64,000 nt of DNA from a virus. Both the position numbers and the translations under genes were made by a program. Positions 555 through 57,428 of this stretch are shown in pieces (the first letter of the stretch is position 1; each line of letters opens with the position of its first letter). The notes under the pieces were generated by a model. It was not told where the DNA came from. It worked only from the letters and a program-made list of their open reading frames with translations, and ran no database searches. The stretch is from positions 1 to 64,000 of the IMG/VR virus record IMGVR_UViG_3300044991_001618. One strand, written 5' to 3'.

Positions 555-1211
555 TTATTTCTTTTTAGAAACAATAATCTCATCAATAATACCATAGGAT
601 AATGATTCATTAGCATCAAGCCATAAATCTCTACTAGCATCCAATTTAACTTGTTCTGCTGTTTTACCACAATAATCCCCCAACAATTTAAAAAGAATTT
701 CATTAGTTTTTTGCCATTCTTTCATTGTTATTTCAGCATCTTGGATATTACCATAAGCCCCCCCAGAACTTTGGTGTAGCATTGTTTTTGAAAACCTAAG
801 AGAAGTTCTTTTCCCTTTTGTTCCAGCACCAAGGATAATGGACCCCATTGATGCAGCCATTCCTGTGTTCACTGTACGCACATCACAAGCAATATAGTCC
901 ATAACATCAACAATTGACAAACCTGCCTTCACAGAGCCACCAGGGCTATCCACGTGCAATGTAACATCTGATTTATCAACAGAATCAAGGAACATTAATT
1001 GTGCTTGAATTATGGTTGCCATTCGATCTTCTACTGGTCCGGCAATCCAGATTAATCTATCTCTCATTAACCTTGAAAAGATGTCAATTTGTGTTGCCCT
1101 CATTTCCCTTTCTTCAAGAATGTAGGGTGTCATAGAGTTTTCAAAATAATCCAAATTTGATGATGGTTTTCCTAAATGGTTAACATAATAGGATTTGAAT
1201 TCGTTTTTCAT
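555..1211 (-). CDS. clpP: ClpP-type serine protease
   Basis: ATP-dependent protease core subunit. At 218 residues it has family length, with about 10 extra N-terminal residues. The catalytic triad is intact: Ser121 in GMAASMGS, His146 in MLHQSSGG and Asp195 in ASRDLWL, with the usual 25 and 49 residue spacing. The substrate-binding segment DSPGGSV lies near residues 88-94. It would form a barrel loaded by an AAA+ unfoldase; a ClpC-like unfoldase is encoded at 12603-14603. Transcribed alone; a TTATAAAAAA tract lies upstream of the ATG. It could act as an auxiliary or competing protease, or mature virion proteins. The family assignment is firm; the role in infection is inferred. Confidence 0.95.
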   Translation of the reverse strand: MKNEFKSYYVNHLGKPSSNLDYFENSMTPYILEEREMRATQIDIFSRLMRDRLIWIAGPVEDRMATIIQAQLMFLDSVDKSDVTLHVDSPGGSVKAGLSIVDVMDYIACDVRTVNTGMAASMGSIILGAGTKGKRTSLRFSKTMLHQSSGGAYGNIQDAEITMKEWQKTNEILFKLLGDYCGKTAEQVKLDASRDLWLDANESLSYGIIDEIIVSKKK

Positions 1212-7576: not shown

Positions 7577-7683
7577 AAATTTTTATTTTTGTTATGTAAA
7601 TAATTTGGTGCAAAGATAATGCAAACCAATTAGACTTTATTGATAAATACCAATAATAGTCATTTTTTTGTTTAAAACAAATA

Positions 7684-7710
7684 GAAAGTGCCACAAAACG
7701 TGGCACTTTC
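7684..7710 (-). terminator. Terminator of tmRNA gene
   Basis: A perfect 11-bp stem GAAAGTGCCAC/GTGGCACTTTC (7684-7694, 7700-7710) begins 3 nt after the encoded CCA end of the tmRNA. On the minus strand it is followed by a T-rich stretch (complement of about 7666-7683). Confidence 0.85.
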
Positions 7711-7712
7711 TT

Positions 7713-8134
7713 TGGTGGAGACGCAGGGAATTGAACCCTGGTCTTGCTCGTAATTTAATAAAAAGACTACATGTTTATTCCATAGATTCTGTATGGACAC
7801 ATAAGACAGTTCATATTTTTCCATTTTTACTGCCAACTGTGGGGGGTTCACTTTCACTATTTACATAGACTAACAGGTAGCACCCCAAACCAAAACCTTT
7901 GACACAATAAGTAGTATCACACTATGAGGCTTCTGTTCCTGGGTTATATGCCCACCGACCCGGGGTTGTTATGACTACTAAGCCGCAACAACAGCATCTT
8001 CACGTACTAGACCTAAAGTTGCTAAAGTTTCTAAAGTGTTGCCAGTTAAAGGCTTGAACCAGTTGTTAATGAGGTTAATTCAGCCCCAACATGCCTTCTT
8101 ACCCAATCCACGCCAATCGATCCCTTTCGCCCCC
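7713..8134 (-). ncRNA. ssrA: Transfer-messenger RNA (tmRNA)
   Basis: 422 nt. The ends form a tRNA-like domain: 5' GGGGGCG pairs with 3' CGTCTCC over seven pairs, with G3-U70 (the alanine identity pair), discriminator A and encoded CCA. The T-arm is CAGGG TTCAATT CCCTG. The mRNA-like part contains a frame from GGC (about 8044) that ends ...LVREDAVVAA followed by tandem TAG TAG; if GGC is the resume codon the tag is 21 residues, twice the common length. Several G/C-rich hairpins between the frame and the 3' domain fit the pseudoknots. It rescues stalled ribosomes and tags products for proteolysis. Its own promoter and terminator flank it. Confidence 0.95.
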
Positions 8135-8148: not shown

Positions 8149-8268
8149 TCATCATTTCTGTTGATGACACAAATATAGATCCCTTTTTTTGATTTTCCAA
8201 ATGGTTTTTTCATTTTCTTTTAAAAGAATTTGATTTGCTGTTTTGTGGATGGAATAATAATATTTAGT

Positions 8269-8294: not shown

Positions 8295-8798
8295 ATGGAA
8301 AAAGAAACATTAAAAAAGATATTCAATTTTCTTGAAAAGAATGATAACAGAAATGTACCATTTACTTGGAAATTATTAAATAATGAACCATTAACAGAAA
8401 AAGATTTAAATATTAAAGGTGATTTGGATTTAACAGAGACAAATATTAAATCATTACCAAATGGATTGAAAATTACTGGGAATTTGATTTTAACTGAAAC
8501 AGATATGAGATTCTTACCAGAAGGACTATTAGTTGGTGGCCATTTGGATTTATATGCTTCAAAAATAGACTCATTACCAAAGGGCTTGAAGGTTGGTGGG
8601 GATTTGAATATTGAAGGCACTTACATAGAATTATTACCAAGTGGCTTACAAGTTGGTGGTGATTTATATTTGAATGATAGTGATTTGCATCACAGCATAG
8701 ATTATAATGATAGTAATGAATTAAGGGATATTGTAAAAAAAATGGTTGAACCTGGTTTTATTAAAGGTAAGGTAATTTTTGATGACGATGATGATTGA
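8295..8798 (+). CDS. LRR-like repeat protein, array 1 gene 1
   Basis: 167 residues. The family N-cap (MEKETLKKIFNFLE... to about 45, with TWKLLNNEPLTEKDL) is followed by four repeats of about 20-22 residues with core LPxGLxVgG-L-L---I. The C-terminus (ELRDIVKKMVEPGFIKG) is followed by a poly-Asp tail. The plan predicts a small solenoid. First gene after the promoter. Its C-terminal 40 residues are nearly the same as in the gene at 10193, which shows recent duplication. Function unknown. Confidence 0.85.
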   Translation: MEKETLKKIFNFLEKNDNRNVPFTWKLLNNEPLTEKDLNIKGDLDLTETNIKSLPNGLKITGNLILTETDMRFLPEGLLVGGHLDLYASKIDSLPKGLKVGGDLNIEGTYIELLPSGLQVGGDLYLNDSDLHHSIDYNDSNELRDIVKKMVEPGFIKGKVIFDDDDD

Positions 8799-8815
8799 TT
8801 TAAATTAAATATATT

Positions 8816-9286
8816 ATGGAAAAAGAAACAATAAAAAAGATATTTGATTTTCTTGAAGAAAATGGTGAGCATAATGCACCACTTATGTGGAAATTAAAAA
8901 ATAATGAACCAATAACAGAAGATGATTTGATTGTTAATGGTGATTTGAATTTGGGTCATTCAAAAATAACTTCACTACCAGAAGGCTTGGAAGTTGGTGG
9001 GTTTTTGGATTTAAGTTATTCACTTATAAACTCATTACCAGAAGGTTTAAAAGTTGGTGGGAGTTTATCTTTATTTGATTGTGCAATTATAACTTCACTA
9101 CCAGAAGGCTTGAAGGTTGGGCGTAATTTAGATTTAGGTTTTACAAAAATAATCTCATTACCAAGAGGGTTAAAAGTTGAGGGTTTTATAGATTTGAATG
9201 GTACAAAATTAACAGAATACACAGATGATGAATTAAGAAAAATGATTAAACCTGGATATATAAAAGGAAGAATAATTAAAGTTTAG
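8816..9286 (+). CDS. LRR-like repeat protein, array 1 gene 2
   Basis: 156 residues, four repeats between the family N-cap (MEKETIKKIFDFLEENGEHN) and the C-cap (DDELRKMIKPGYIKGRIIKV). Its last three repeats are close to those of the gene at 9644 (shared GGSLSLFDCA and KVEGFIDLNGTKL blocks), so the two are recent copies. 17 nt from the previous stop, 3 nt to the next start; probably translated from one message. Confidence 0.85.
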   Translation: MEKETIKKIFDFLEENGEHNAPLMWKLKNNEPITEDDLIVNGDLNLGHSKITSLPEGLEVGGFLDLSYSLINSLPEGLKVGGSLSLFDCAIITSLPEGLKVGRNLDLGFTKIISLPRGLKVEGFIDLNGTKLTEYTDDELRKMIKPGYIKGRIIKV

Positions 9287-9289
9287 TTA

Positions 9290-9640
9290 ATGGAAAAAGA
9301 AACACTAAAAAAAATACTTGATTTTCTTAAACAGAATGAGAATAGAAATATTCCAATTGCTTGGAAATTAATAAATAATGAACCATTAACAGAAAAGGAA
9401 TTAACTATTGATCGTGATTTGGATTTAAAAGGTTCAACTATAAAATCCTTACCAGAATATTTAAATATTAAAGATGATTTGGATTTATCTCACACAAAAA
9501 TAACCTCATTACCAAAAGGATTAAAAGTTGGTGAAAATTTATATATTAAAAACAGCCCATTAACTAAATATTCAGATTATGAAATAATAAAAATGATTGC
9601 GCCTGGATATATTCAAGGTAAAATAGATAGAAGTTGGTAA
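9290..9640 (+). CDS. LRR-like repeat protein, array 1 gene 3 (short)
   Basis: 116 residues, the shortest member: complete N-cap and C-cap but only two repeats (SLPEYLNIKD, SLPKGLKVGE). The C-terminal block KVGENLYIKNSPL is also found in the gene at 10717. Both ends are intact, so this is a short variant and not a broken gene. It shows that repeat number is free to vary. Confidence 0.82.
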   Translation: MEKETLKKILDFLKQNENRNIPIAWKLINNEPLTEKELTIDRDLDLKGSTIKSLPEYLNIKDDLDLSHTKITSLPKGLKVGENLYIKNSPLTKYSDYEIIKMIAPGYIQGKIDRSW

Positions 9641-9643
9641 ATT

Positions 9644-10189
9644 ATGGAAAAAGAAACATTAAAAAAGATATTTGATTTTATCAAAACAAAAGATAATAGA
9701 AATATTCCATTTATGTGGAAATTAAAAAATAATGAGCCAATAACAGAAGATGATTTGATTGTTAATGGTGATTTGGATTTGAGACCTAGTAGCATAGATT
9801 ACATGGATATAGAATCATTACCAGAAGGATTAAAAGTTTCTGGTCGTTTAGACCTTATGGGCTCAGATATGCAATTTTTACCAAAAGGCTTGGAAGTTGG
9901 TGGGTATTTGGATTTAAGTTATTCACTTATAAAATCATTACCAGAAGGATTAAAAGTTGGGGGGAGTTTATCTTTATTTGATTGTGCAAATATAACTTCA
10001 CTACCAGAAGGCTTGAAGGTTGGGGGCAATTTAGATTTAGGGGCTACAAATATAACATTATTACCAAGAGGGTTAAAAGTTGAGGGTTATATAGAGTTGA
10101 ATGGTACAAAATTAACAGGATACTCAGATGGTGAATTAAGAAATATGGTCAAACCTGGATATATAAAAGGAAGAATAATTAAATTTTAG
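9644..10189 (+). CDS. LRR-like repeat protein, array 1 gene 4
   Basis: 181 residues, five repeats. The N-cap differs slightly (FDFIKTKDNRNIPFMWK). From about residue 85 it follows the gene at 8816 nearly residue by residue with one extra repeat before that point, as expected from unequal recombination. C-cap GELRNMVKPGYIKGRIIKF. Spacing is 3 nt on both sides. Confidence 0.85.
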   Translation: MEKETLKKIFDFIKTKDNRNIPFMWKLKNNEPITEDDLIVNGDLDLRPSSIDYMDIESLPEGLKVSGRLDLMGSDMQFLPKGLEVGGYLDLSYSLIKSLPEGLKVGGSLSLFDCANITSLPEGLKVGGNLDLGATNITLLPRGLKVEGYIELNGTKLTGYSDGELRNMVKPGYIKGRIIKF

Positions 10190-10192
10190 TTA

Positions 10193-10717
10193 ATGGAAAA
10201 AGAAACACTAAAAAAAATATTCAATTTTCTTGAAGAAAATGAAAGACATCAAACTCCATTTTTGTGGAAATGGGTAAATAATATACCATTAACAGAAAAA
10301 GATTTAAATATTGAAGGTAATTTGGATTTAACAGACACAGATATTAAATCATTACCAGATGGATTGAAAGTTGCTGGGAATTTGAATTTAACTGAAACAG
10401 ATATGGAATCATTACCAGAAAGATTGGAAGTTGCTGGTAATTTATATTTGGATCACAGTTTTATAAAATCATTACCAAAGGACTTGAAGGTTGGGGGGTA
10501 TTTGAGTATTGAAGCCACTTACATAAAATCATTACCAAGAGGCTTACAAGTTGGTGGTGATTTATATTTGAATGATAGTAAATTACTTAATAATATAGAT
10601 TATAATGATAGTAATGAATTAAGGGATATTGTAAAAAAAATGGTTGAACCTGGTTTTATTAAAGGTAATGTAATTTTTGATGAAGAAGGTGAGAATTGGC
10701 TTAAATCAGACATGTAA
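10193..10717 (+). CDS. LRR-like repeat protein, array 1 gene 5
   Basis: 174 residues, four repeats. It is the paralogue of the gene at 8295: same order of repeats, the same GGDLYLNDS block and the same extended C-cap (NDSNELRDIVKKMVEPGF), but the acidic tail is replaced by DEEGENWLKSDM. Its stop overlaps the next ATG (TAATG), giving translational coupling. Confidence 0.85.
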   Translation: MEKETLKKIFNFLEENERHQTPFLWKWVNNIPLTEKDLNIEGNLDLTDTDIKSLPDGLKVAGNLNLTETDMESLPERLEVAGNLYLDHSFIKSLPKDLKVGGYLSIEATYIKSLPRGLQVGGDLYLNDSKLLNNIDYNDSNELRDIVKKMVEPGFIKGNVIFDEEGENWLKSDM

Positions 10718-11268
10718 TGGAAAAAGAAACACTAAAAAACATACTTGATTTTCTTAAAGAAAAGGAAGGGAAATCATCTATTAGATGGAAATTATTACAT
10801 AATGAACCATTTACAGAAGAAGAGTTAAATGTTGATGGTAAGTTTATTTTTGATGGATTTTTGGATTTATCAGGCAAAAATATAACATCATTACCAAAAG
10901 GATTGGAAGTTAGGGGTAATTTATATTTAAGAAACTGTAAAAGTTTAACATCCTTACCAGAAGGATTGTCTGTTTGGGGGACTTTGGATTTAAAAGGTTC
11001 AACTATAAAATCCTTACCAGAAGGACTACTCCTTGGTGGTTTGAATTTAACAAATTGCAAAAGTTTAACATCCTTACCAGAAGGAATGAAAGTTGGTCGT
11101 GGTGGTTTGAATTTAACAAATTGCAAAAGTTTAACCTCATTACCAAAAGGATTAAAAGTTGGTGAAAATTTATATATTAAAAACAGCCCATTAGCAAAAT
11201 TTTCAGATGAGAGTTTAAAAGATATGATTGGATTAAATGGATATATAAAAGGAAAAATAGTTAGATAA
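10717..11268 (+). CDS. LRR-like repeat protein, array 1 gene 6
   Basis: 183 residues, five repeats. The repeats here are LRR-like in the strict sense (LNLTNCKSLTSLPEGMKVG), with the NCKSLTSLP segment present three times. N-cap MEKETLKNILDFLKEKEG, C-cap ESLKDMIGLNGYIKGKIVR with an insertion (GLNG) relative to the family. Coupled to both neighbours by TAATG overlaps. Confidence 0.85.
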   Translation: MEKETLKNILDFLKEKEGKSSIRWKLLHNEPFTEEELNVDGKFIFDGFLDLSGKNITSLPKGLEVRGNLYLRNCKSLTSLPEGLSVWGTLDLKGSTIKSLPEGLLLGGLNLTNCKSLTSLPEGMKVGRGGLNLTNCKSLTSLPKGLKVGENLYIKNSPLAKFSDESLKDMIGLNGYIKGKIVR

Positions 11269-11747
11269 TGAAAAAAGAAACACTAAAAAAGATATTTGAT
11301 TTTCTTGAAGAAAATCATAATAAAAGAAAACCACTTATGTGGAAATTAAAAAACAATATACCAATAACAGAAAAAGATGATTTGATTGTTAAAGGTAGTT
11401 TGGATTTATCTAGTTCAAACATAACCTCACTACCAAAAGGTTTGGAAGTTAAAGGTGGTTTAAGTTTATATGAATCAGAAATAATCTCCTTACCAGAAGG
11501 CTTGAAGGTTGGGGGTGATTTAGATTTAAGAAATTCATATATAGAAAGTTTACCAGAAGGATTGGAAGTTGGGGATGAATTGGATTTAGCATATACATAC
11601 ATAACATCACTACCAAAAGGTTTAAAAGTTGGGAGTATTTTGATTATAATTGAGAGTGAATTATTAAAATATTCAGATAAAGAAATAAGAAAAATGATTG
11701 AACCTGGGTATATTAAAGGGAAAATAATTAGAGAATATTATAGATAA
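11268..11747 (+). CDS. LRR-like repeat protein, array 1 gene 7
   Basis: 159 residues, four repeats, N-cap beginning MKKETL in place of MEKETL and C-cap KEIRKMIEPGYIKGKIIREYYR. Last gene of the first array; the peptidase gene follows after 24 nt with its own TATATTTA-like element (about 11753-11760). Confidence 0.85.
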   Translation: MKKETLKKIFDFLEENHNKRKPLMWKLKNNIPITEKDDLIVKGSLDLSSSNITSLPKGLEVKGGLSLYESEIISLPEGLKVGGDLDLRNSYIESLPEGLEVGDELDLAYTYITSLPKGLKVGSILIIIESELLKYSDKEIRKMIEPGYIKGKIIREYYR

Positions 11748-11771: not shown

Positions 11772-12569
11772 ATGGACAAAGAACTTTTAAAAGAAATATT
11801 ATCAATCCCCTCCTATTCGGGTGATGAAACAAAATTGGTTAATTTTATTACCAGTTATTTAGATGCTAACGATATCAAATACACATTAGATGAAATGAAA
11901 AACATTTATTGTGTGAAAGGTGAAGCAGAGTATTATCCTTGTGTCGTAGCACACACAGATACTGTCCATAACAACACTTTTATAGATGTTAGAACTGAAC
12001 TTAAACCAAACTCCAAAAGAGTCTTAAAAGAGGCGTATAAGGGTTATGATGTAAAAGGAAACCCAACAGGAATTGGTGGTGATGATAAGGCTGGAGTATT
12101 TGCTTGTCTTACTTTATTAAAGGAATTACCAGTAATAAAAGCGGCCTTTTTTGTTTCAGAAGAAATTGGTTGCGTGGGATCATTAAACGCTGATGCAAAT
12201 TTTTTCCTAGATGTGGGTTATGCAATTCAATTTGATGCCCCCTTTGATTGGATGGTAAGTGAAATATCTTCTGGAGTTAGATTATTTGACAGAGATAGCA
12301 AGTTCTTCACAAAGATAGATAAGGTATTAACAGAAAACACAAACCCCCAATATCAATCACACCCATATACCGATATATTTGCCTTAAAGAAATTATTTGA
12401 TTTTAGTTGTGTTAATATATCAATAGGATATTATGATTACCACACAAAGGATGAATATGTTGTTTTAGAAGATGTGGAGAAAGGAATTAAAATGGGCAGA
12501 GAAATGATAGAAAGTTTAGGATACAAGAAATATTACAAAAAATATAAACCATTAAGAATATTAGGATAA
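11772..12569 (+). CDS. M20-family di-zinc peptidase (PepT-like)
   Basis: 265 residues. Two-zinc aminopeptidase fold: metal ligands His61 and Asp63 (VVAHTDTV), the Asp pair in GIGGDDKAG (104-105), catalytic and ligand Glu130-131 (VSEEIGCVGS), Asp155 (QFDAP) and a late His in YYDYHTKDEYV. All positions needed for activity seem present. It is shorter than host PepT (about 400) because the lid/dimerisation domain is mostly missing, as in tetrahedral aminopeptidase-like or reduced M20 enzymes. It would trim peptides, for instance Clp products. Followed by a strong terminator. Confidence 0.85.
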   Translation: MDKELLKEILSIPSYSGDETKLVNFITSYLDANDIKYTLDEMKNIYCVKGEAEYYPCVVAHTDTVHNNTFIDVRTELKPNSKRVLKEAYKGYDVKGNPTGIGGDDKAGVFACLTLLKELPVIKAAFFVSEEIGCVGSLNADANFFLDVGYAIQFDAPFDWMVSEISSGVRLFDRDSKFFTKIDKVLTENTNPQYQSHPYTDIFALKKLFDFSCVNISIGYYDYHTKDEYVVLEDVEKGIKMGREMIESLGYKKYYKKYKPLRILG

Positions 12570-12602: not shown

Positions 12603-14603
12603 TTAGTTTAGAATAACATTTTCATCTTTTGCAGTTAATTGGTATTTACCCCCTTCTTTAACCACATCATTTAATACTTCATCAGAAATTAAATCTTCAA
12701 TTTTATCTTGAATTGCTCGTTTTATTGGTCTTGCACCATAAGTTTCATCAAACCCAATTTTTGATATTAAATCAACAACACTATCATCATAAGTGAAATT
12801 GTATTTTGATTCTTTTAGTCTATCAATCAACTTGTTAAGTTCAATTCTTGTGATTTTCTTAACATTATCATCATTTAATGTATTGAATACAACTGTATCA
12901 TCAATACGATTTAAGAATTCTGGTGAGAAAAACTTTTTAAGTTCAGCCATTAGCATAGATTTTTTTGCTTCTTCATTACCATATTTTGAACTAGTGAAAC
13001 TAATACCTGTACCAAAGTCAGAGAATTTCTTAATACCCAAGTTTGATGTTAAAATGATTATGGTATTTTTAAAATTAATTGTTTTTCCCATAGCATCAGT
13101 AAGATGACCATCATCCAGAATTTGCAATAATAAATGGAATACATCTTTATGTGCTTTTTCTATCTCATCAAATAAAATAACAGAATAAGGATTGTTTTTA
13201 ACTTTTTCAGTTAATTGACCACCTTCATCATGTGAAACATATCCTGGAGGTGAACCAATTAATCTTGATATGGTATGCTTTTCTTGGTATTCACTCATAT
13301 CAACACGAATTAGTGATTTTTCATTCCCAAACAATTGTTTTGCAAGTTGTTTTGCAAGATGCGTCTTACCAACACCTGTGGATCCCAAACAAATAAAACT
13401 ACCAATTGGTCGGTTGGGGTCTTTTATGTTTAATCTATTTCTCTTAATTGCTTTAACAATTGAATCAACTGCTTGGTCTTGCCCAATAACTTTATCTTTA
13501 ATCTTTTTATCAATATTGATAAGTTTTTGCTTTTCATCAAGATTTAATTGTTCAATTGGGATGTTTGTCATAATTGATACAACAGAATAAACATCTTCTT
13601 CATCAATTTTTCTTTTGTTTTTAATATTATCTTCTTCAAACTTTTTTGTTTCAGCATCAAGTTTGGTTAATAATTTTAATTCCTTATCCCTAATTTCAGC
13701 AGCCAATTCATATTCTTGGTTGATAACAACTCTTGTTTTTTCTTGTTTTAGTTCAGAAATTTTTTCTTTTAACTTTTTGATTGATTCTGGAATTTTAACT
13801 TCAACTTGTTGCCTTGCACCAACTTCATCAATAACATCAAATCCCTTATCTGGGAATGCTCTGTCTGTGATATATCTATCAGCCAATCTAACACATAATT
13901 CAATTATCTCATCACTATATATTGATTTATGAAATGATTCATATTTATCAATGGATTGTTTAATGATTGTTATTGTTTCTGCTATTGAGGGTTGTTCAAG
14001 TTTGATTTTTTGAAATCTTCTTGCTAATGCCCCATCTTTCTCAATTGATTTTTTATATTCATCAAATGTGGTTGCCCCAATGCATTGAATATCCCCAGAT
14101 GCTAATGCTGGCTTGAATATATTTGCACCATCCATAGAATTTGAAGAATTACCAGAGCCAATTAATGTGTGAATTTCATCAATAAACACAACCACATTTG
14201 GATTTGATGTTAATTCATCAATAATAACTTTCATTCTTTCTTCAAACTGACCCCTATATTTGGTTCCAGCAACAACAGATGTTAAATCCAAATTAACAAT
14301 TCTTTTGTTCAATAAATTTTGCGGACCTTCACCTTTTGAAATCATTAAAGCAACGCCTTCAATTAAGTTAGTTTTACCACAACCAGCCTCACCAAGGATT
14401 AATGGGTTGTTCTTTTTTCGTCTTGATAAGATTTGAGCCAATCTCTTAACCTCTTTCTCTCTACCAATTGACGCATCCAATTTCCCCATTTCAGCTAGTT
14501 TGGATAAATCCCTACTAAAATTGTCTAAGACTGGGGTTTTTGAACTTGAGGTATTTTTCTTACCTCTTGTTGTTTTTTCATCATCAAAATAGTCAACATT
14601 CAT
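12603..14603 (-). CDS. ClpC/ClpA-type AAA+ unfoldase lacking N-domain
   Basis: 666 residues with two AAA+ rings: Walker A GEAGCGKT (71-78) and Walker B VVVFIDE (137-143) in D1; Walker A GSTGVGKT (407-414) and Walker B VILFDE (475-480) in D2; Arg-finger region EFLNRID (562-568) and sensor-2 GARP. A short coiled middle segment (about 274-325, INQEYELAAEIRDKE) is of ClpC type. The substrate/adaptor N-domain (about 150 residues) is absent; D1 starts near residue 25. The ClpP-docking loop position after TSNLG reads GISF (533-536), where hosts usually have (I/V)GF or IGL. Expected to feed substrates to ClpP (555-1211). Divergent from hsp20. Confidence 0.92.
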   Translation of the reverse strand: MNVDYFDDEKTTRGKKNTSSSKTPVLDNFSRDLSKLAEMGKLDASIGREKEVKRLAQILSRRKKNNPLILGEAGCGKTNLIEGVALMISKGEGPQNLLNKRIVNLDLTSVVAGTKYRGQFEERMKVIIDELTSNPNVVVFIDEIHTLIGSGNSSNSMDGANIFKPALASGDIQCIGATTFDEYKKSIEKDGALARRFQKIKLEQPSIAETITIIKQSIDKYESFHKSIYSDEIIELCVRLADRYITDRAFPDKGFDVIDEVGARQQVEVKIPESIKKLKEKISELKQEKTRVVINQEYELAAEIRDKELKLLTKLDAETKKFEEDNIKNKRKIDEEDVYSVVSIMTNIPIEQLNLDEKQKLINIDKKIKDKVIGQDQAVDSIVKAIKRNRLNIKDPNRPIGSFICLGSTGVGKTHLAKQLAKQLFGNEKSLIRVDMSEYQEKHTISRLIGSPPGYVSHDEGGQLTEKVKNNPYSVILFDEIEKAHKDVFHLLLQILDDGHLTDAMGKTINFKNTIIILTSNLGIKKFSDFGTGISFTSSKYGNEEAKKSMLMAELKKFFSPEFLNRIDDTVVFNTLNDDNVKKITRIELNKLIDRLKESKYNFTYDDSVVDLISKIGFDETYGARPIKRAIQDKIEDLISDEVLNDVVKEGGKYQLTAKDENVILN

Positions 14604-14801: not shown

Positions 14802-15215
14802 ATGAAAGACAGAGATTATTTAGCAGAGCTATTATTTGGATTATCAAATCCATTTGGCTTATCAAGTTCAGTACCGTTTGCATCAGATTCCACTTATGGT
14901 CATTATGGGATTAAACATAGCGCCTATGATAGTGAATATGATATTGAATTAACTAAGGATGGTGCATACATATCCTTTGAAGTTCCAGGTTTTACCAAAG
15001 ATAACTTAGAAATATCTATAGAAGATAGGGTAGTCATAATTAAAGGTGAAAGGGTTGTCAATAAGAAAGGCGAAGTTAAGAAAATACTTCACAAATACAA
15101 AGTTGATAGCAACTTTAATGAATCAAATATTGAAGCAACAGTATCAAATGGTATTTTAACATTATTCTTGCCAAATTATATTGCTAAACCTAAAAAAACA
15201 ATAACAATTAACTAA
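14802..15215 (+). CDS. Hsp20 small heat-shock protein
   Basis: 137 residues. Alpha-crystallin domain at about 45-130: [26 protein letters not shown] and the signature [13 protein letters not shown]; the C-terminal ITI is the family's I-x-I anchor. A holdase that keeps unfolding proteins soluble. Stop and next start overlap (TAATG at 15213-15217), so it is coupled to the cyclophilin gene. Divergent from the ClpC-like gene across a region with paired palindromes. T4-like phages of other hosts also carry Hsp20 genes, where they are presumed to aid capsid or tail assembly. Confidence 0.93.
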
Positions 15216-15646
15216 TGACAAAAGTAAAAATTGAAACAGCAAAGGGGGTGATGATTGCTGAATTGTATGACAATGAAACCCCAATTACCGTTGATAATTT
15301 TAAGAAATTAATCAATGAAGGATTTTATAATGGATTAAATTTCCATAGGGTTATTCCCAACTTTATGATACAAGGTGGTTGCCCAAATGGTGTTGGAAAT
15401 GGTGGACCAGGATATAATATTAAGTGTGAGGTTAATGCTGATAAACAACAACACGATAGGGGTGTATTGAGTATGGCTCATGCTGGTAGGGATACTGGGG
15501 GATCACAATTCTTCATATGTCATAATAGGCAAGGTGTTGCTCATTTGGATGGAAATCATACATGCTTTGGTAAAGTTGTTGATGGGTTGGATGTAATTGA
15601 TTCAATTAGCCAAGGTGATTTAATAAATAGTATTTCAATAATTTAA
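15215..15646 (+). CDS. Cyclophilin peptidyl-prolyl isomerase
   Basis: 143 residues. Cyclophilin motifs [13 protein letters not shown] (43-55; catalytic Arg45, with Phe50, Met51 and Gln53), [16 protein letters not shown] (substrate pocket) and [13 protein letters not shown] near the C-terminus. Cytoplasmic type, no signal peptide. It catalyses cis-trans isomerisation of X-Pro bonds. Co-translated with Hsp20, a two-gene folding unit. The C-terminus is slightly shorter than in host enzymes but all core strands appear present. A phage-encoded cyclophilin is uncommon. Confidence 0.93.
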
Positions 15647-34103: not shown

Positions 34104-34490
34104 CTAAAAGGCTTCAACCTTAATTAAAAAGTTTTCTTTTAGATAATTTGACAACTCATAAAAGGTATCAAATTTTGATTGCATCTTATCATCAAACCTG
34201 CTGATAATATCAATATGTGTTTGATGGTGATTAATAAAAAACTTGAAAAGTTCATATTCATAAATCATATGAATTTCTCTATCATATATAATGATAAAGA
34301 TATTCTCATCTTCAAGATAAATTAATCTTTCTGGCGATTTTGATGAATAAGCAAGTTTGGCATCTGGATTGTCCAGCATTTTAAAGATAATATTTTTACA
34401 CCTAACTTCATCCTCTGTTGGGTCAGTTAATGCCAAGATGTTTTCTTTAAATGAATTAACTAGGGGGGTCAACCAAGATTTAATGTTCAT
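34104..34490 (-). CDS. Hypothetical protein
   Basis: 128 residues, acidic with helical ends and a central hydrophobic strand set (EDENIFIIIYDREIHMIYEYELFKFFI). No recognised motif. Lies between the nuclease-like gene and LRR array 3 and is transcribed in the same direction. Confidence 0.55.
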   Translation of the reverse strand: MNIKSWLTPLVNSFKENILALTDPTEDEVRCKNIIFKMLDNPDAKLAYSSKSPERLIYLEDENIFIIIYDREIHMIYEYELFKFFINHHQTHIDIISRFDDKMQSKFDTFYELSNYLKENFLIKVEAF

Positions 34491-34523
34491 AGTTTTTTTA
34501 TTACAAATATACTACAAGTTGAA

Positions 34524-35090
34524 TTAAATAGCAAATTCTGTTTCATCCCAATCAGGATCCTCATTTAATATAATACCTTTAATATATCCAGGTTTAACCA
34601 TTTTTTTTAATTGATTTTCAGTGTATTTGGTTAATTTTGTGTAAGTTATGTTTATTCCATCATCAACTTTCAATCCTTTTGGTAATGATTGTAATTTGTA
34701 ACAATGATTTAAATATAATGTACCATTAACTTTTAATCCTTCTGGTAATGATTCAAGTTTTTCACAGCCATATAAATCCAAATCACCCCCAACTTTCAAT
34801 AGTTCTGGTAATGATTTTATATTTGAATGTTCTAAAGATAACTCGCCCCCAACTTCCAAGTCTTCTGGTAATGAAGTTATTTTTGAATAATCTAAATTCA
34901 AATTGCCACTAACTTTCAATCCTTCTGGTAATGAAGTTATTTTAAAATTTGATAAATCCAAATCATCATTAACAATTAAATCTTCTTTTGTTAATGGTGA
35001 ACCATTTGTTATTTTCCATAAAAATGGAATTTTTGTACCATCTAACTTTTCAATAAAATTAAATATATTCTTTAGTGTTTCTTTTTCCAT
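34524..35090 (-). CDS. LRR-like repeat protein, array 3 gene 4
   Basis: 188 residues, five repeats with classical LRR character (DLYGCEKLESLPEGLKVNG, TLYLNHCYKLQSLPKGLKV). N-cap FNFIEKLDGTKIPFLWKITNGSPLTKEDL is the most divergent of the family. C-cap NQLKKMVKPGYIKGIIL and an acidic tail EDPDWDETEFAI. Last gene of array 3 in transcription order; its start overlaps the upstream stop by 1 nt. Confidence 0.85.
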   Translation of the reverse strand: MEKETLKNIFNFIEKLDGTKIPFLWKITNGSPLTKEDLIVNDDLDLSNFKITSLPEGLKVSGNLNLDYSKITSLPEDLEVGGELSLEHSNIKSLPELLKVGGDLDLYGCEKLESLPEGLKVNGTLYLNHCYKLQSLPKGLKVDDGINITYTKLTKYTENQLKKMVKPGYIKGIILNEDPDWDETEFAI

Positions 35091-35494
35091 TATCTAATTA
35101 TATTATTTATATATCCAGGATTAACCATTTGCCTTAATTCCTCAGTTGAATATTTTGTTAATGGTGTATTTTTAATAAACAAACGACCCCAAACTTTCAA
35201 CCCTTTTGGTAATGATGTTATATTTGAATGTCCCAAATCCAAATCCTCCCCAACTTTTAATCCTTCTGGTAATGATTGTATATTTTTACAACCATATAAA
35301 CTTAAAATATCCTCAACGTTCAATCCATCTGGTAATGATTCAATATCTGTTTCTGTTAAATCCAAATCCCCTTCAACAAATAACTCTTCATCTGTTAATG
35401 GTTCATTATTCATTAATTTCCACATAAATGGTTTATCCTTATTTTCTTCTTCTTCAAGGAATGTAAATATCTTTTTTAGTGTTTCTTTTTCCAT
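35090..35494 (-). CDS. LRR-like repeat protein, array 3 gene 3
   Basis: 134 residues, three repeats. N-cap IFTFLEEEENKDKPFMWKLMNNEPLTDEEL; repeats SLPDGLNVED, SLPEGLKVGE, SLPKGLKVWG; C-cap EELRQMVNPGYINNIIR. TAATG overlaps on both sides. Confidence 0.85.
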   Translation of the reverse strand: MEKETLKKIFTFLEEEENKDKPFMWKLMNNEPLTDEELFVEGDLDLTETDIESLPDGLNVEDILSLYGCKNIQSLPEGLKVGEDLDLGHSNITSLPKGLKVWGRLFIKNTPLTKYSTEELRQMVNPGYINNIIR

Positions 35495-36141
35495 TATCTT
35501 TCTATATTTCCAAGTATAAATCCTGGTTTAACCATTTTTCTTAATTCATTATCTGAAAATTTTGCTAACCCAGAGTCGTGAATGGCCAAATTACCATAAA
35601 CCTCCAACCCTTTTGGTAATGAAGTTAAATTTTTGCAACGCATTAAATCTAACAATCTATTAACTTTTAATCCTTTTGGTAAAAATCCTATCTCTGAATC
35701 CTCCAAAGATAATATACCAACTTCCATTCCTTCTGGTAATGATTCCAAATATGGGGTGGTATTTAAATTTAATTCACCTTCAATTTTTAATCCTTTTGGT
35801 AATGATTGTATTTGTGTATATGATAAATCCAAATCTAATTTAACTTTTAATCCTTTTGGTAATTTTCTTATTTCTGTATAATTTAAAACTAAATGCCCTC
35901 CAACTTCCAATCCTTCTGGTAATGATTTAATATCTGAATTTTGTAAAAACAAATCACCTTCAACTTTCAATCCTTCTGGCAATTCTTCTATCTCTAAATC
36001 TGATAAATTCAAATCACCTTTAACATGTAAATCATCTTCTGTGAATGGAAAACCATTTGACCATTTCCACCTAAGTGGCGTATTCCTATTATCCTTCTTT
36101 TCAAGGAAATTAAATATCTTCTTTAATGTTTCTTTTTCCAT
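35494..36141 (-). CDS. LRR-like repeat protein, array 3 gene 2
   Basis: 215 residues, seven repeats, two lacking the final Gly-Gly (KVKLDLDLSYTQ, EVGILSLEDSE). N-cap FNFLEKKDNRNTPLRWKWSNGFPFTEDDL, C-cap NELRKMVKPGFILGNIER. Coupled to neighbours by TAATG overlaps. Confidence 0.85.
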   Translation of the reverse strand: MEKETLKKIFNFLEKKDNRNTPLRWKWSNGFPFTEDDLHVKGDLNLSDLEIEELPEGLKVEGDLFLQNSDIKSLPEGLEVGGHLVLNYTEIRKLPKGLKVKLDLDLSYTQIQSLPKGLKIEGELNLNTTPYLESLPEGMEVGILSLEDSEIGFLPKGLKVNRLLDLMRCKNLTSLPKGLEVYGNLAIHDSGLAKFSDNELRKMVKPGFILGNIER

Positions 36142-36605
36142 TATCTATATATATATCTATTTAAAAAACTAGGCTCAACCATTTTTATTAATTCATCATC
36201 TGAAAATTTTGCTAATGGTGTTCCACCAATAAACAAATTTTGCCCAACTTTCAATCCTTTTGGTAATGATGCTATTTCAGAGTAGGATAAATCCAAATCA
36301 ACCCCAACTTCTAATCCTTCTGGCATAGAAGTTATTCTTGTGTTTGATAAATCTAAATGTCTCCCAACTTTCAATCCTTTTGGTAATGATTTAATATCAG
36401 AAAATTGTAAATACAAGTCACCTTCAACATATAAATTATCTGGCAATGTTTCTATCCCTGAATCTGAAAAATCCAAATCACCTTTAATATGCAAATCATC
36501 TTCTGTTAATGGTTCACCACTTGACCATTTCCATAATAATGGTGCTCTTATTTCATCATTCTTTTCAAGAAATTTAAATATCTTCTTTAATGTTTCTTTT
36601 TCCAT
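36141..36605 (-). CDS. LRR-like repeat protein, array 3 gene 1
   Basis: 154 residues, four repeats. First LRR-like gene of array 3 in transcription order; it begins 3 nt after the stop of the LWSQCLSWARSRY protein. N-cap FKFLEKNDEIRAPLLWKWSSGEPLTEDDL, C-cap DELIKMVEPSFLNRYIYR. Confidence 0.85.
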   Translation of the reverse strand: MEKETLKKIFKFLEKNDEIRAPLLWKWSSGEPLTEDDLHIKGDLDFSDSGIETLPDNLYVEGDLYLQFSDIKSLPKGLKVGRHLDLSNTRITSMPEGLEVGVDLDLSYSEIASLPKGLKVGQNLFIGGTPLAKFSDDELIKMVEPSFLNRYIYR

Positions 36606-36608
36606 TAT

Positions 36609-37031
36609 CTATCCTTTCTTCCACTTTCCACCCAATTTCTTATACCTTTTTGCCGCAGCACCATTACAATATGCGCTTGGGCATACTTTATACCTAGACC
36701 TTGCCCAACTCAAACATTGACTCCATAACTTGGGATTTGTTGGTTTATTCTTTTTTTCCTTTGCTTCTGTTATGTTCTGGCTATCCCTATTTTCAAATTC
36801 ATTCATCATAAAATCAAAAACTTGATCCAAGTTTTCTTTTGCAACTGTCACATGGTCATCAGCCCAATCATGGCCATTGGTCAACAATTCATTAATTTCA
36901 TCAGGTTGAAATTCAAGCAATAATTCACATTGTCTTTTAATTTGTTTTAAGTTTCCAAAAAACATATAATTTTCTGTTGCTTGCTCATTTATTGCATTCT
37001 TAACAATTTTTTTAATTACTGGATGTATCAT
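36609..37031 (-). CDS. Virion-associated protein with YKVCPSAYCNG motif
   Basis: 140 residues. The C-terminal block LWSQCLSWARSRYKVCP followed by SAYCNGAAAKRYKKLGGKWKK is a small domain common at the C-termini of proteins in large environmental phages. The N-terminal half contains a helix starting IKKIVKNAINEQ. Leads array 3. A TATTTATA element lies 15 nt upstream (37046-37053). Confidence 0.65.
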   Translation of the reverse strand: MIHPVIKKIVKNAINEQATENYMFFGNLKQIKRQCELLLEFQPDEINELLTNGHDWADDHVTVAKENLDQVFDFMMNEFENRDSQNITEAKEKKNKPTNPKLWSQCLSWARSRYKVCPSAYCNGAAAKRYKKLGGKWKKG

Positions 37032-37045
37032 ATCTTATTTTTTAT

Positions 37046-37053
37046 TATAAATA
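37046..37053 (-). promoter_or_regulatory. TATTTATA promoter of array 3 operon
   Basis: Minus-strand GATATTTATAATAAAAAA, 15 nt before the ATG at 37031. It follows the end of array 4 (37171), separating the two arrays into different transcripts. Confidence 0.5.
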
Positions 37054-37170
37054 TCATTATTCTTTATTTTGATTATGGCTCTCATATTTTGATTTTAAGG
37101 GACTTTTTGTTTTAGCCTATTACTATGTCATCTTTATTAAAATCTGCTGTTGTGGTTAAATTGTATGTGG

Positions 37171-37710
37171 TTATATCCTAATTATTCTACCTATACGCCC
37201 AGGTTTAACCATTTCTCTTAATTCAGCATCTGAAAATTTGTCTAAACTATCTCCAACACTCACGGCTAAATATCCATTAACTTCCAATCCTTTTGGTAAT
37301 CTTTTTATTGGTGTATCCATTATTGATAACCAAAGGTCAATTACTAGCCCTTCTGGTAATGAAGTTATTTTTGTATTATGCAAATACAAAGAAGCACCAA
37401 TTTTAATATCATTTGGTATGTTTTTTATAATTGAATGCGATAACTCCAGAGAACCATCAACTTTTAACCCTTTTGGTAATTCTTCTATTTTTGAAAATCT
37501 AGTAATCATTCTACCTTTAACTTCCAAATTATCTGGTAATGATTTTAAAGTTGAATCTGTTAAATCTAAATCACCATTAACAATTAAATCTTCTTTTGTT
37601 AGGGGATCACCAAGTTTTAATTTCCAAATAAAGGTATCTCTATCTTTATGTTTTTTGTTTTCTTTCTTTTCAAGGAAATCAAATATATTTTTTATTGCTT
37701 CTTTTTCCAT
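37171..37710 (-). CDS. LRR-like repeat protein, array 4 gene 9
   Basis: 179 residues, five repeats, two with Ile-Pro in place of Leu-Pro (NIPNDIKIGASLYL). The N-cap MEKEAIKNIFDFLEKKENKK, with extra KHKDRD, is the same as in the next gene. C-cap AELREMVKPGRIGRIIRI. Last gene of array 4. Confidence 0.85.
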   Translation of the reverse strand: MEKEAIKNIFDFLEKKENKKHKDRDTFIWKLKLGDPLTKEDLIVNGDLDLTDSTLKSLPDNLEVKGRMITRFSKIEELPKGLKVDGSLELSHSIIKNIPNDIKIGASLYLHNTKITSLPEGLVIDLWLSIMDTPIKRLPKGLEVNGYLAVSVGDSLDKFSDAELREMVKPGRIGRIIRI

Positions 37711-38318
37711 TATCTAATTATTTGCTCCTTTATAAATCCAGGTTTAACCATATTTCTTAATTCTTCATCAGAAAATTTTACTAATGGTGATCCACTTATA
37801 ATTAAAATCCCCCTAACTTTCAACCCTTTTGGTAATGATGTTAAACTTGTGCAATTTTCTAAATACAAATCACGGCCAACTTCCAATCCTTCTGGCAAGG
37901 ATGTTAAACTTGTGCAATTTTCTAAATCTAAATTATGCGCAACTTTCAATCCTTTTGGTAAAGATATTAAATTTGTGGAATTTTCTAAATATAAAGACGC
38001 TCCAAGTTCTAATCCTCTTGGCAGTGAAATTAAATCTTCACAACCTTCTAAATCTAAACGACCCCCAACTTTTAAGTTATCAGGTAATGATTTAATAGAT
38101 GAATAATTTAAAATCAAATAACCACCAACTTTCAACCCATCTGGTAATGAGGTTATTTTTGAATATGATAAATCCAAATTACCTTTTACATTTAACTCTT
38201 CTTCTGTTATTGGTTCATCAAATTTTAATTTCCAAATAATGCTATCCCTATCTTTATGTTTTTTATTTTCTTTCTTTTCAAGGAAATCAAATATATTTTT
38301 TATTGCTTCTTTTTCCAT
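37710..38318 (-). CDS. LRR-like repeat protein, array 4 gene 8
   Basis: 202 residues, six repeats. Its repeats contain the strict LRR segment LENCTSLTSLP (twice) and LENSTNLISLP. N-cap nearly identical to the gene at 37171. C-cap EELRNMVKPGFIKEQIIR. TAATG overlaps at both ends. Confidence 0.85.
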   Translation of the reverse strand: MEKEAIKNIFDFLEKKENKKHKDRDSIIWKLKFDEPITEEELNVKGNLDLSYSKITSLPDGLKVGGYLILNYSSIKSLPDNLKVGGRLDLEGCEDLISLPRGLELGASLYLENSTNLISLPKGLKVAHNLDLENCTSLTSLPEGLEVGRDLYLENCTSLTSLPKGLKVRGILIISGSPLVKFSDEELRNMVKPGFIKEQIIR

Positions 38319-38797
38319 TATCTAATTATTTTACCATTTATAAACCCATCTGGTTCAACCATTTCTCTTATTTTTTCATCTGAAAGTTTTGCTAATGGAG
38401 TTTTTACAATATGTAAATTACGTTCAACTTTTAAACCTTTTGATAATGTTTCTATATCTGAATATGTTAAATCTAAATCGCGACCAACATATAAATCACC
38501 TGGCAAGGATTTGAAACTTGTCCATTCAAAATTCAAATCACCCTCAACAAATAATTTTTCTGGGAATGTTTTTAAACTTGAGAACCGAAAATCAGCATTT
38601 CCTATAACTTTTAACCCTTTTGGTAAATGTTGTATATTTATGCCAGATATATCCAAATCGCCTCTAACAATTAAATCTTCTTTTGTTAATGGTTCATTAA
38701 ACATAAATTTCCACCTTAAAGTTCCTTTGTTTTTATGTTTTTTATTGTCTTCTTTTTCAAGAAAATCAAGTATATTTTTTAGTGTTTCTTTTTCCAT
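38318..38797 (-). CDS. LRR-like repeat protein, array 4 gene 7
   Basis: 159 residues, four repeats of weaker consensus (TFPEKLFVEG, SLPGDLYVGR, TLSKGLKVER). N-cap LDFLEKEDNKKHKNKGTLRWKFM; C-cap EKIREMVEPDGFINGKIIR. The divergence suggests an older copy. Confidence 0.82.
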   Translation of the reverse strand: MEKETLKNILDFLEKEDNKKHKNKGTLRWKFMFNEPLTKEDLIVRGDLDISGINIQHLPKGLKVIGNADFRFSSLKTFPEKLFVEGDLNFEWTSFKSLPGDLYVGRDLDLTYSDIETLSKGLKVERNLHIVKTPLAKLSDEKIREMVEPDGFINGKIIR

Positions 38798-39267
38798 TAT
38801 CTAATTATATTTCCTTTAAATGAACCATTATTTAAATTTTTATTTCTTCTTATTTCAGCATCTGTATATTTTTTGGCAAGGAAGGATTCTCCTATATATA
38901 AATTACCACCAACATATAAATTTTTTGGGATTTCTTCTATATCTGAATGTCTAAAATACAAATCACCCCCAACATATAAATTGTCTGGTAATGATTCTAT
39001 ATTTGTATGGGATAAGTTAAAACTATCCTTAACATATAACCCTTCTGGTAATGAGTTTATTTCTGATCCCAACAACCACAATTTACCTTCAACTCTCATC
39101 CCATTAGGTAATGAGGTTATAGTTGTAAATTCCAAATTTAAATTGCCTTTTATATTTAAATCCTCTTTTGTTAGTTCATTATTTACCCATTTCCATAAAA
39201 ATGGTGTTTTGATATCATCATTTTCTTCAAGGAAATCAAATATTCTTTTTAATGTTTCTTTTTCCAT
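38797..39267 (-). CDS. LRR-like repeat protein, array 4 gene 6
   Basis: 156 residues, four repeats. The last two repeats (SLPDNLYVGG, EIPKNLYVGG) and the unusual C-cap (KKYTDAEIRRNKNLNNGSF) are the same as in the gene at 39267 except for a few positions; a recent duplication. Confidence 0.85.
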   Translation of the reverse strand: MEKETLKRIFDFLEENDDIKTPFLWKWVNNELTKEDLNIKGNLNLEFTTITSLPNGMRVEGKLWLLGSEINSLPEGLYVKDSFNLSHTNIESLPDNLYVGGDLYFRHSDIEEIPKNLYVGGNLYIGESFLAKKYTDAEIRRNKNLNNGSFKGNIIR

Positions 39268-39740
39268 TATCTAATTATATTTCCTTTAAATGAACCATTA
39301 TTTAAATTTTTATTTCTTCTTATTTCACCATCTGTATATTTTTTGGCGAGGGGGGTCTCTTCTATATCTAATTCACCACCAACGTATAAATTTTTTGGTA
39401 TTTCTCCTATATTTGAATATTTAAACCATAAATCACCCCCAACATATAAATTGTCTGGTAATGATTCAATATATGTATGTGATACATCCAAACTACCCTT
39501 AACATATAGCCCTTCTGGTAATGTTTTTATTGCTGATGCAAATAATGACAAATCACCTTGAACTCTCAATCCCTCTGGTAATGAGGTTATTGCTGAATGA
39601 TTTAAAATTAAATCCCCATCAAAATTTAATTCATCTTCTGTAAATGGGTGATTAATTTTTACTTTATAAGCAAAAGGTTTTGGTCTATTTTCCTCTTTCT
39701 CAAGGAATTCAATTATTTTTTTTAATGTTTCTATTTCCAT
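39267..39740 (-). CDS. LRR-like repeat protein, array 4 gene 5
   Basis: 157 residues, four repeats; sister of the gene at 38797. N-cap MEIETLKKIIEFLEKEENRP differs at residues 2-4. The C-cap ends ...NLNNGSFKGNIIR in both. Confidence 0.85.
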   Translation of the reverse strand: MEIETLKKIIEFLEKEENRPKPFAYKVKINHPFTEDELNFDGDLILNHSAITSLPEGLRVQGDLSLFASAIKTLPEGLYVKGSLDVSHTYIESLPDNLYVGGDLWFKYSNIGEIPKNLYVGGELDIEETPLAKKYTDGEIRRNKNLNNGSFKGNIIR

Positions 39741-40279
39741 TACTCTCTTAATATTCCTTTTATAAATCCAGGTTTAACCATTTCTTTTAATTCAGCATTA
39801 GAAAATTTGGATAAACTATCATTACTATTTAAAACTAAATAACCCTTAATTATCAATCCTTTTGGTAATGAAGTTATTTTTGTTTTCTGCAAATACAAAG
39901 AACCACCAATTTCAATATCATCAGGTATATTTTTTATTTTTGAGTTCCTTAAATTCAAATTACCACCAACTTTCAATCCTTTTGGTAGTGATTCTATATT
40001 TGAACTTGCTAAAGATAAATAATCCCCAACTTCTAACCCTTCTGGTAATGAGACTATTGCCGAACAACCCATTAAATTAACCCAACCCTTAACTCTTAAT
40101 CCTTCTGGTAATGATGTTACTTTTGTATATGATAATTCCAAATTACCATTAATATTTAATTCATCATATGTTAATTCATTAAATATAACCTTCCATTTAA
40201 AACTACCTTTATCTCGGGGCATTTTATTTTCTTCCTTTTCAAGAAAATCAAGTATTTTTTTAAATGTTTTATTTTCCAT
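39740..40279 (-). CDS. LRR-like repeat protein, array 4 gene 4
   Basis: 179 residues, five repeats; the fourth, NIPDDIEIGGSLYLQKTKI, is close to one in the gene at 37171 (NIPNDIKIGASLYLHNTKI). N-cap LDFLEKEENKMPRDKGSFKW. C-cap AELKEMVKPGFIKGILRE. Confidence 0.85.
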   Translation of the reverse strand: MENKTFKKILDFLEKEENKMPRDKGSFKWKVIFNELTYDELNINGNLELSYTKVTSLPEGLRVKGWVNLMGCSAIVSLPEGLEVGDYLSLASSNIESLPKGLKVGGNLNLRNSKIKNIPDDIEIGGSLYLQKTKITSLPKGLIIKGYLVLNSNDSLSKFSNAELKEMVKPGFIKGILRE

Positions 40280-40282
40280 TAT

Positions 40283-40696
40283 CTACATATTTCCTATTAT
40301 TTCTCCTATATAACCATTTGGCTTTATCATATTCAATAATTCATTGTCTGAAATTTCTGTAAATTTTGTTCTGTAAATATATAAACTACCCCCAACTTTC
40401 AAGTCTTTTGGTAATGAGGTTAAACCCCAACACCCAGCTAACCATAAATTACCCTCAACTTCCAATCCTTCTGGTAATGTTTTTATATCTGAGTCTGTTA
40501 AATCTAAAACACGCCCAACTTTCAATCCTTCTGGTAATGAAGTTATTTTAAAATTTGATAAATCCAAATTACCTTCAATATTTAAATCTTTTTCTGTTAA
40601 GGGTTCATTATTTTTTACTTTATAAGCAAAAGGTTTTTTTCTATTTTCTTCCTTCTCAAGGAATTCAAGTATTCTTTTTAATGTTTCTTCTTTCAC
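40283..40696 (-). CDS. LRR-like repeat protein, array 4 gene 3
   Basis: 137 residues, three repeats. N-cap MKEETLKRILEFLEKEENRK, C-cap NELLNMIKPNGYIGEIIGNM, similar to the C-cap of the gene at 27754. Overlaps the upstream gene by 4 nt. Confidence 0.83.
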   Translation of the reverse strand: MKEETLKRILEFLEKEENRKKPFAYKVKNNEPLTEKDLNIEGNLDLSNFKITSLPEGLKVGRVLDLTDSDIKTLPEGLEVEGNLWLAGCWGLTSLPKDLKVGGSLYIYRTKFTEISDNELLNMIKPNGYIGEIIGNM

Positions 40697-41289
40697 AATC
40701 TTGATATTTTTTCTTTTATAAATCCAGGATAAACCATTTCTCTTAATTGTCCATCTGTGTATTTTCGTAATGGGGTATTTTCTATATACAATACCCCCCT
40801 AACTTCTAACCCTTTTGGTAATGATGTTATTTTTGTATCTTTTAAATTCAAATATTTACCAACTTTTAATCCTTCTGGTAGTGAAATTAAATCTTTGCAA
40901 GAATATAAATCCAAAAAACCCCTAATTTTTAAGTCATTAGGTAATGAACTAATGGATGTATAATTTAAATGCAAATTACCACCAACTTTCAATCCTTTTG
41001 GTAATGAGGTTATTTTTGAATATGCTAAAAACAAATGCTTCCCAACTTTTAATCCTTCTGGTAATGATTGTATTCTTGAAAATGTTAAAATTAAGTCCCC
41101 CTCAACTTTTAACCCTTCTGGTAATGATTCTATACTTGAGTACATTAAATTCAAATCATCTTTTATATTTAATTCATCTTTTGTTAATGGTTTATTAAAT
41201 AATAACTTCCACCTTAAATTATTTTTAGGTATTACCCCTTCCTTTTCTTCAAGAAAATCAAGTATTTTTTCAATTGTTTCTTTTTCCAT
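40693..41289 (-). CDS. LRR-like repeat protein, array 4 gene 2
   Basis: 198 residues, six repeats of good consensus. N-cap LDFLEEKEGVIPKNNLRWKLLFNKPLTKDEL; C-cap GQLREMVYPGFIKEKISRL. Overlaps neighbours at both ends. Confidence 0.85.
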   Translation of the reverse strand: MEKETIEKILDFLEEKEGVIPKNNLRWKLLFNKPLTKDELNIKDDLNLMYSSIESLPEGLKVEGDLILTFSRIQSLPEGLKVGKHLFLAYSKITSLPKGLKVGGNLHLNYTSISSLPNDLKIRGFLDLYSCKDLISLPEGLKVGKYLNLKDTKITSLPKGLEVRGVLYIENTPLRKYTDGQLREMVYPGFIKEKISRL

Positions 41290-56777: not shown

Positions 56778-57428
56778 TTATAATCCACCATTTATTTTTA
56801 AATTACCACCACAAAAATATTCATTTTCTATAATATAATCAATAGTATTATATAATTCTTCAGTTTTACCAAACCTTTTTAAACCTATTTTTTCTTTTGC
56901 AATATCTTGATATTTAGATTCAACTCTATCACCCATTCCACCATCCCAATATCCTAGTTGTATTGTATTACATGTTATTCCATGTTTTATATTTTCTTTA
57001 TTAGCAACCGAAATTAATCTATCCAAAAAAGCTTTTGATGCACAATATAATGAATTTTTAGGTACATTCATTTCAGAAAAAATTGAAGATATTGATATCA
57101 CTCTACCCCATTTATTTTTAATCATATTTGGTAAGCATCCAGAAAGTATATTTATATTACCTTTTATGTTTACATTCAACATATCATCAATTTCTTTATA
57201 ATCATCCTCAGTAATACTATTTAAAAATACATCATATTTTTTACCTGACATATTTAAAACAATATCTACTTGATTTTCATTAAAAAAATTATTTACTTCT
57301 TTTGGGTTTGTTACATCAACGTCTTTACTACTTAAATCAATTACTTCATATTTTTTTTTAAGAAATGGTACTAATTTAGTTCCAAGACCACCTTTTCCAC
57401 CAAAAACAACTATTTTTTTCATAATCAT
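56778..57428 (-). CDS. Short-chain dehydrogenase/reductase (FabG-like)
   Basis: 216 residues. NAD(P)-binding VFGGKGGLGTKLV near residue 6-18, NMSGKK, the catalytic Ser in SISSIFSE and Tyr-x3-Lys in YCASKAF. Reductase of 3-ketoacyl or ketosugar substrates. ATG 57428 overlaps the KAS III stop in an ATGA arrangement, so the two enzymes are made together, which favours a 3-ketoacyl substrate. Confidence 0.85.
   Translation of the reverse strand: MIMKKIVVFGGKGGLGTKLVPFLKKKYEVIDLSSKDVDVTNPKEVNNFFNENQVDIVLNMSGKKYDVFLNSITEDDYKEIDDMLNVNIKGNINILSGCLPNMIKNKWGRVISISSIFSEMNVPKNSLYCASKAFLDRLISVANKENIKHGITCNTIQLGYWDGGMGDRVESKYQDIAKEKIGLKRFGKTEELYNTIDYIIENEYFCGGNLKINGGL

Follow-up and report, generated by a model that had tools for sequence, protein, structure and literature searches.

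A tmRNA gene with an unusually long tag and a gene for an AAA+ unfoldase of the ClpC type travel together in phages whose hosts, as several lines of evidence support, are Bacteroidota. On sequence comparison, with a probability that we would put at roughly two in three, they constitute a trans-translation branch that belongs to the phage and is linked to an AAA+ protease likewise its own. The case starts from a single gene in the window, the 64,000-nucleotide stretch of DNA analysed here, which belongs to a 112,963-base virus record with one tmRNA copy above the RF00023 cut-off. Comparison with 127 related phage tmRNAs from IMG/VR indicates that the finding is wider than one odd tag and concerns a conserved phage system, whose features in the window are collected in Table 1.

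Table 1. Features of the tmRNA and Clp region in the window (positions in nucleotides)
Feature	Position	Strand	Basis
tmRNA (ssrA), 422 nt	7713..8134	minus	ARAGORN; Rfam RF00023; stem covariation in relatives
Tag reading frame GGC..GCT = GNTLETLATLGLVREDAVVAA, then TAG TAG	7981..8043	minus	gene positions 92-154; homologous frame open in 127 relatives; A at -4 invariant
Bacteroidota-type promoter TTTG-N20-TATATTTG	8170..8201	minus	pattern match; enriched upstream of relatives
Intrinsic-terminator-like hairpin, 12-bp stem	7682..7711	minus	fold after encoded CCA
ClpP-like peptidase, 218 aa, triad motifs ASMG / LHQ / SRD	555..1211	minus	PF00574, 190 bits; 175 bits to solved ClpP
M42/M20-like aminopeptidase	11772..12569	plus	phrog_4191; PF05343 just over cut-off
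ClpC-like AAA+ unfoldase without N-domain, 666 aa, UVR/M region kept	12603..14603	minus	PF07724, AAA_lid_9, ClpB_D2-small, phrog_4871; alignment with Bacteroidota ClpC
Hsp20 small heat-shock protein (putative system member)	14802..15215	plus	PF00011
Cyclophilin-type prolyl isomerase (putative system member)	15215..15646	plus	PF00160, 147.6 bits

The tmRNA gene and its phage relatives

An earlier note on this DNA had described a complete tmRNA with the alanine identity pair G3-U70, an encoded CCA, and its own promoter and terminator, leaving the strand unstated; the gene lies on the minus strand. ARAGORN calls a single tmRNA there, with the tag GNTLETLATLGLVREDAVVAA and two successive stops, and the covariance-model search that the note had proposed gives an end-to-end match to RF00023 (82.6 bits against a cut-off of 47, E 1.6e-30). 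The gene is real, and both the G3-U70 pair and the encoded CCA are present. The two flanking signals are likewise seen: the promoter motif fits the Bacteroidota consensus, and a terminator-like hairpin follows the CCA, the 52 nt after the CCA having a fold energy of -21.4 kcal/mol in all.

The same features recur across the family. Of 119 relatives, 110 retain the G-U pair, and their acceptor and T stems show compensatory substitutions; the CCA is encoded in most relatives and not in all (ACCA in 70 of 119). The motif TTTG-N17-23-TAnnTTTG stands in 55 of 104 distinct upstream regions, where 1.0 would be expected. RF00023 exceeds its curated cut-off in 21 of 27 records of relatives. A Clp-anchored set of 80 viral loci, picked by a homologue of the window's ClpC-like gene and then searched with a tmRNA family model, yielded matches in 58, as against 7 in which ARAGORN reported a tmRNA; that program misses most of this family. 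It also reports short tags for two relatives (AEEATVVA and AEEAVVEA, loci L005 and L016), which look like wrong frame starts, homology giving full 21-residue tags in both. The start of the tag frame, formerly placed by position, is now backed by 127 open homologous frames and by an A at -4 from the resume codon in 114 of 114 distinct sequences; in Escherichia coli the frame is set mainly by the corresponding base, A86 (PMC2481249).

This degree of maintenance bears on whether the gene might be a non-functional passenger that was picked up from a host through imprecise excision or retained because it serves integration. Host ssrA genes are reported as known integration sites, with fragments occurring in prophages (PMC9004378), but the sequences already contradict such an origin: the 127 relatives keep the frame, the tag length, the acceptor and T stems, the A at -4 and, in many cases, the promoter motif, and the family shows little similarity to the tested Bacteroidota tmRNAs outside the universal ends. 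We give this explanation almost no weight.

Searches of GenBank phages with the tag and the tmRNA returned nothing, or the universal 3' end alone; no cultured member of the family was found in them, and all records are metagenomic. The same tmRNA was not found near the closest Clp genes of three deposited huge phages and one Staphylococcus phage. One member of a subclade with NVYNxME tags (L242, IMGVR_UViG_2603880160_000004) may have an isolate or single-cell source and might therefore name a host.

A long tag maintained by selection

Among the 127 tmRNAs there are 80 different tags; each has 20-22 residues, and no frame is broken. Their consensus is GN[TV][FL]xKMxx[LIV]GL[IVL]R[ET][ES]xVxVA, also given as GNVLNKMAxLGLVRxxxVxVA, with conservation at an inner core (K6, M/L7, G11 and L12) as well as at the C-terminus; among 71 distinct 63-base tag sequences G11 is invariant, and L12 and A21 are nearly so. 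Synonymous changes outnumber nonsynonymous ones in the tag codons: pN/pS is 0.66 overall and 0.44 in close pairs, compared with a mean of 0.90 and a minimum of 0.68 after shuffling of columns. Conservation at codon positions 1, 2 and 3 is 0.61, 0.69 and 0.48, and the two alternative frames contain stops in 66 of the 71 sequences. From these patterns the phage tags are judged to be under purifying selection.

The earlier note had called the tag unusually long and unlike the usual ALAA type, and had suggested a comparison with host tags, which upholds both points. Tags recovered from host-like Bacteroidota genomes have 9 residues (GENNYALAA, GESNYALAA, GNEEYALAA) and end mostly in ALAA or AMAA. 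The phage tags mostly end in -VA or -AA.

The Clp unfoldase, its synteny and its neighbours

A ClpP and a ClpC belonging to the phage itself had also been claimed, and both genes are confirmed in the window. The ATPase is nearest to the ClpC of Bacteroidota, at 52-54% identity, and contains two AAA+ modules with Walker A/B motifs and pore loops; D1, the M region and D2 are shared between phage and host proteins, while the N-domain is found in the host proteins only. We call it ClpC-like because this N-terminal, adaptor-binding domain is absent. The loss is general, occurring in 111 of 111 phage ClpC proteins examined, with at most 49 residues before D1 as against 187-200 in hosts, and the same 111 all retain the ATPase motifs and pore loops. 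Adaptors such as ClpS dock on the N-domain of ClpA, and Leptospira ClpA from which this domain was deleted still assembles and binds ClpP (PMC12493166). The loss in the phage proteins would thus fit an enzyme reduced to direct recognition of its substrates, which may include direct reading of the tag.

The position of the tmRNA relative to this gene is strikingly constant. All 58 tmRNAs found by the family model in Clp-anchored loci lie on the Clp strand, 2.0-5.2 kb downstream of Clp. Among the 80 loci, each of the 47 that extend 6 kb or more downstream has the tmRNA on that strand. A second scan of viral contigs by tmRNA DNA pattern alone, which avoids ascertainment through Clp, found a phage Clp in 39 of 50 records, with the tmRNA downstream on the same strand in all 38 in which both genes could be placed. 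The remaining 11 records were considered as a possible break in the link and can be accounted for otherwise: two are weak family-model matches (L252 and L259), in four the contig ends no more than 3 kb from the tmRNA, and the other five come from the NVYNxME subclade, in which Clp lies up to 35 kb upstream. The tag and ClpC also diverge together: with the rest of the tmRNA controlled for, their distances give a partial r of 0.24 (permutation p 0.001, 50 distinct loci), compared with 0.04 for the tag and the adjacent peptidase. This association is suggestive only, as shared descent cannot be fully removed from a Mantel-type correlation and may partly underlie it.

Of 71 records, 25 encode a ClpP; among the 13 that are at least 150 kb long it was detected in 10 and not in the other 3. 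The ClpP-docking loop G[IVL]GF is present in nearly all phage ClpC proteins, mostly as GIGF or GVGF, and the window protein has GISF. PHROGs suggests that the window's ClpP is a head maturation protease, a candidate that we rejected: a separate prohead protease lies in the capsid cluster at 21.4-32.7 kb (terminase, portal, phrog_207 protease and major head protein), with ClpP far off at 0.6-1.2 kb. No SmpB gene was found in the window's virus record; among 27 records of relatives, one encodes it. A single 309-kb record, L019, holds all four parts, SmpB (161 bits, locus L086), tmRNA, ClpC and ClpP.

These data also bear on a role of the tag in stabilising or redirecting products, for example as a shield of phage fragments from host ClpXP or a peptide for binding, in which case ClpC would work without ClpP, as an unfoldase or disaggregase. 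The conserved inner core of the tag, besides its C-terminus, and the large records without ClpP would suit such a role; the near-universal docking loop and the ClpP genes in most of the largest records speak against it, and we regard it as improbable.

Between Clp and the tmRNA the aminopeptidase recurs in 58 of 58 loci by neighbourhood clustering. In the window the interval also holds about seven short plus-strand genes (8295-11747), several of them clearly paralogous, with leucine-rich-repeat-like LPxGLxVGGxLxL repeats, whereas most relatives have in their place a conserved protein of about 450 aa (phrog_17056, function unknown). A further conserved family between aminopeptidase and tmRNA (L065:13170-15086, minus strand, with homologues in 57 loci), which has no Pfam match and in some loci a second copy beyond the tmRNA, is a possible adaptor. 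In 19 loci a short protein with an HExxH-like metallopeptidase-type motif, FHEIRHE (L034:11892-12671, plus strand), is encoded on the Clp strand a short way downstream of that gene, without a Pfam or PHROG match. Elsewhere in the window, minus-strand genes of a surface-glycan type (53747-54745, 57425-58369, 58453-59088 and 61161-61952) comprise a nucleotide-sugar epimerase (phrog_540), a FabH-like ketoacyl synthase and two FkbM methyltransferases, and a long minus-strand series of similar-sized genes occupies 34104-41996, of which three were checked and had no Pfam match.

A Bacteroidota host is supported by the affinity of ClpC, by the promoter type and by probable identity with a described phage group. 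Phages encoding bS21 are reported to have predicted Bacteroidetes hosts, genomes of up to 331 kb, and chaperones and a Clp protease (PMC9723584); bS21 is encoded in 26 of 32 records tested and had no match in the window's own record, and the present clade is probably the same group. The consulted portion of that study describes tRNA prediction by tRNAscan-SE only and makes no mention of tmRNA.

A proposed pathway and its relation to known systems

Taken together, these features suggest how the phage-owned branch of trans-translation might operate. Host RNA polymerase would transcribe the tmRNA from its own Bacteroidota-type promoter, as the motif implies, and host RNase P, AlaRS, EF-Tu and SmpB would presumably serve it. 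When a ribosome stalls on an mRNA that is broken or has no stop codon, the tmRNA would supply alanine and a tag of 20-22 residues, which the phage ClpC lacking an N-domain would bind directly at the D1 pore, without N-domain adaptors. The ClpC would then unfold the tagged protein and feed it to a ClpP, the phage's own if it encodes one and otherwise the host's, and the nearby aminopeptidase may complete the breakdown of the peptides. The advantage would lie in the recycling of ribosomes during infection, when broken mRNA is likely to be common, and in the disposal of fragments by a machine under phage control. Expression, tagging, tag recognition and degradation are all inferred here from the genes.

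The earlier note had raised the possibility of a preference of the phage protease for the tag. The Clp-tmRNA synteny, the loss of the ClpC N-domain, the selection on the tag and the divergence of the tag in step with ClpC give this supposition a better footing than the note could have had. Set against the pathway as a whole are the several large records without detected ClpP, the GISF loop of the window's ClpC in place of GIGF, and tag ends in -VA or -AA that might be legible to host ClpXP too. A stricter version, in which a private degron of about 21 residues is read only by the phage ClpC lacking an N-domain, so that stalled products go to the viral and not the host protease, and in which this pathway belongs to a widespread clade of large Bacteroidota phages, seems to us evenly poised between true and false.

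A plainer account would have the tmRNA do no more than rescue ribosomes, with host ClpXP (or Lon) degrading the products and the synteny reflecting a shared infection-time quality-control module of Hsp20, cyclophilin, ClpC, peptidase and tmRNA, without direct recognition of the tag by ClpC. The adjoining chaperone genes, the many records in which ClpP was not found (including the 3 of 13 large ones) and the small hydrophobic residues at the tag ends are in keeping with it, but it does not readily explain why the tags exceed host tags more than twofold in length and are under selection throughout, why the adaptor domain is exactly what the phage ClpC has lost, or why tag divergence follows ClpC. 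We consider this account unlikely, though the most credible of the alternatives.

Viral tmRNAs are not new. Mycobacteriophages and phage G are reported to have them (PMC4131195), as are Melnitz and 402 of 18,146 phage genomes (PMC9004378), and in huge phages SmpB can accompany the tmRNA (PMC7162821), so that the earlier statement that few phages are known to have one is outdated. Those genes are complete, as here, and the consulted portions of the reports mention no Clp partner (PMC4131195, PMC9004378). Tags annotated in Streptomyces phages, ANSNVASAYALAA and ANSKFAFALAA, are short and host-like, unlike those of the window's family. Our search of the open literature, with subscription papers outside its scope, found no description of this tag or of Clp-tmRNA coupling, and the coupling and the long conserved tag thus appear to be undescribed there. 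Where viral tmRNAs have been reported without a known protease partner, as far as the consulted open literature goes, the present ones stand in fixed synteny with a dedicated unfoldase, and recurrence in more than 100 viral contigs with a selected long tag makes it testable what a phage tmRNA is for.

The predicted system resembles bacterial tmRNA/ssrA with ClpXP or ClpAP in its G3-U70 pair, CCA, resume codon set by the A at -4, in-frame tag and stop, and in the AAA+ unfoldase and ClpP nearby. It differs from Bacteroidota ssrA in being phage-encoded, in a tag of 20-22 aa ending V-x-x-A instead of 9 aa ending ALAA or AMAA, and in its tie to a ClpC without N-domain. The nearest functional precedent is Mesoplasma florum, whose mf-Lon is co-adapted with a long divergent ssrA tag and reads other tags poorly (PMC8138137); that pair is cellular and Lon-based, whereas the one proposed here is viral and ClpC-based, with a putative specificity. 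Next to the Mesoplasma Lon, it is a naturally occurring candidate for an orthogonal pair of degron and protease.
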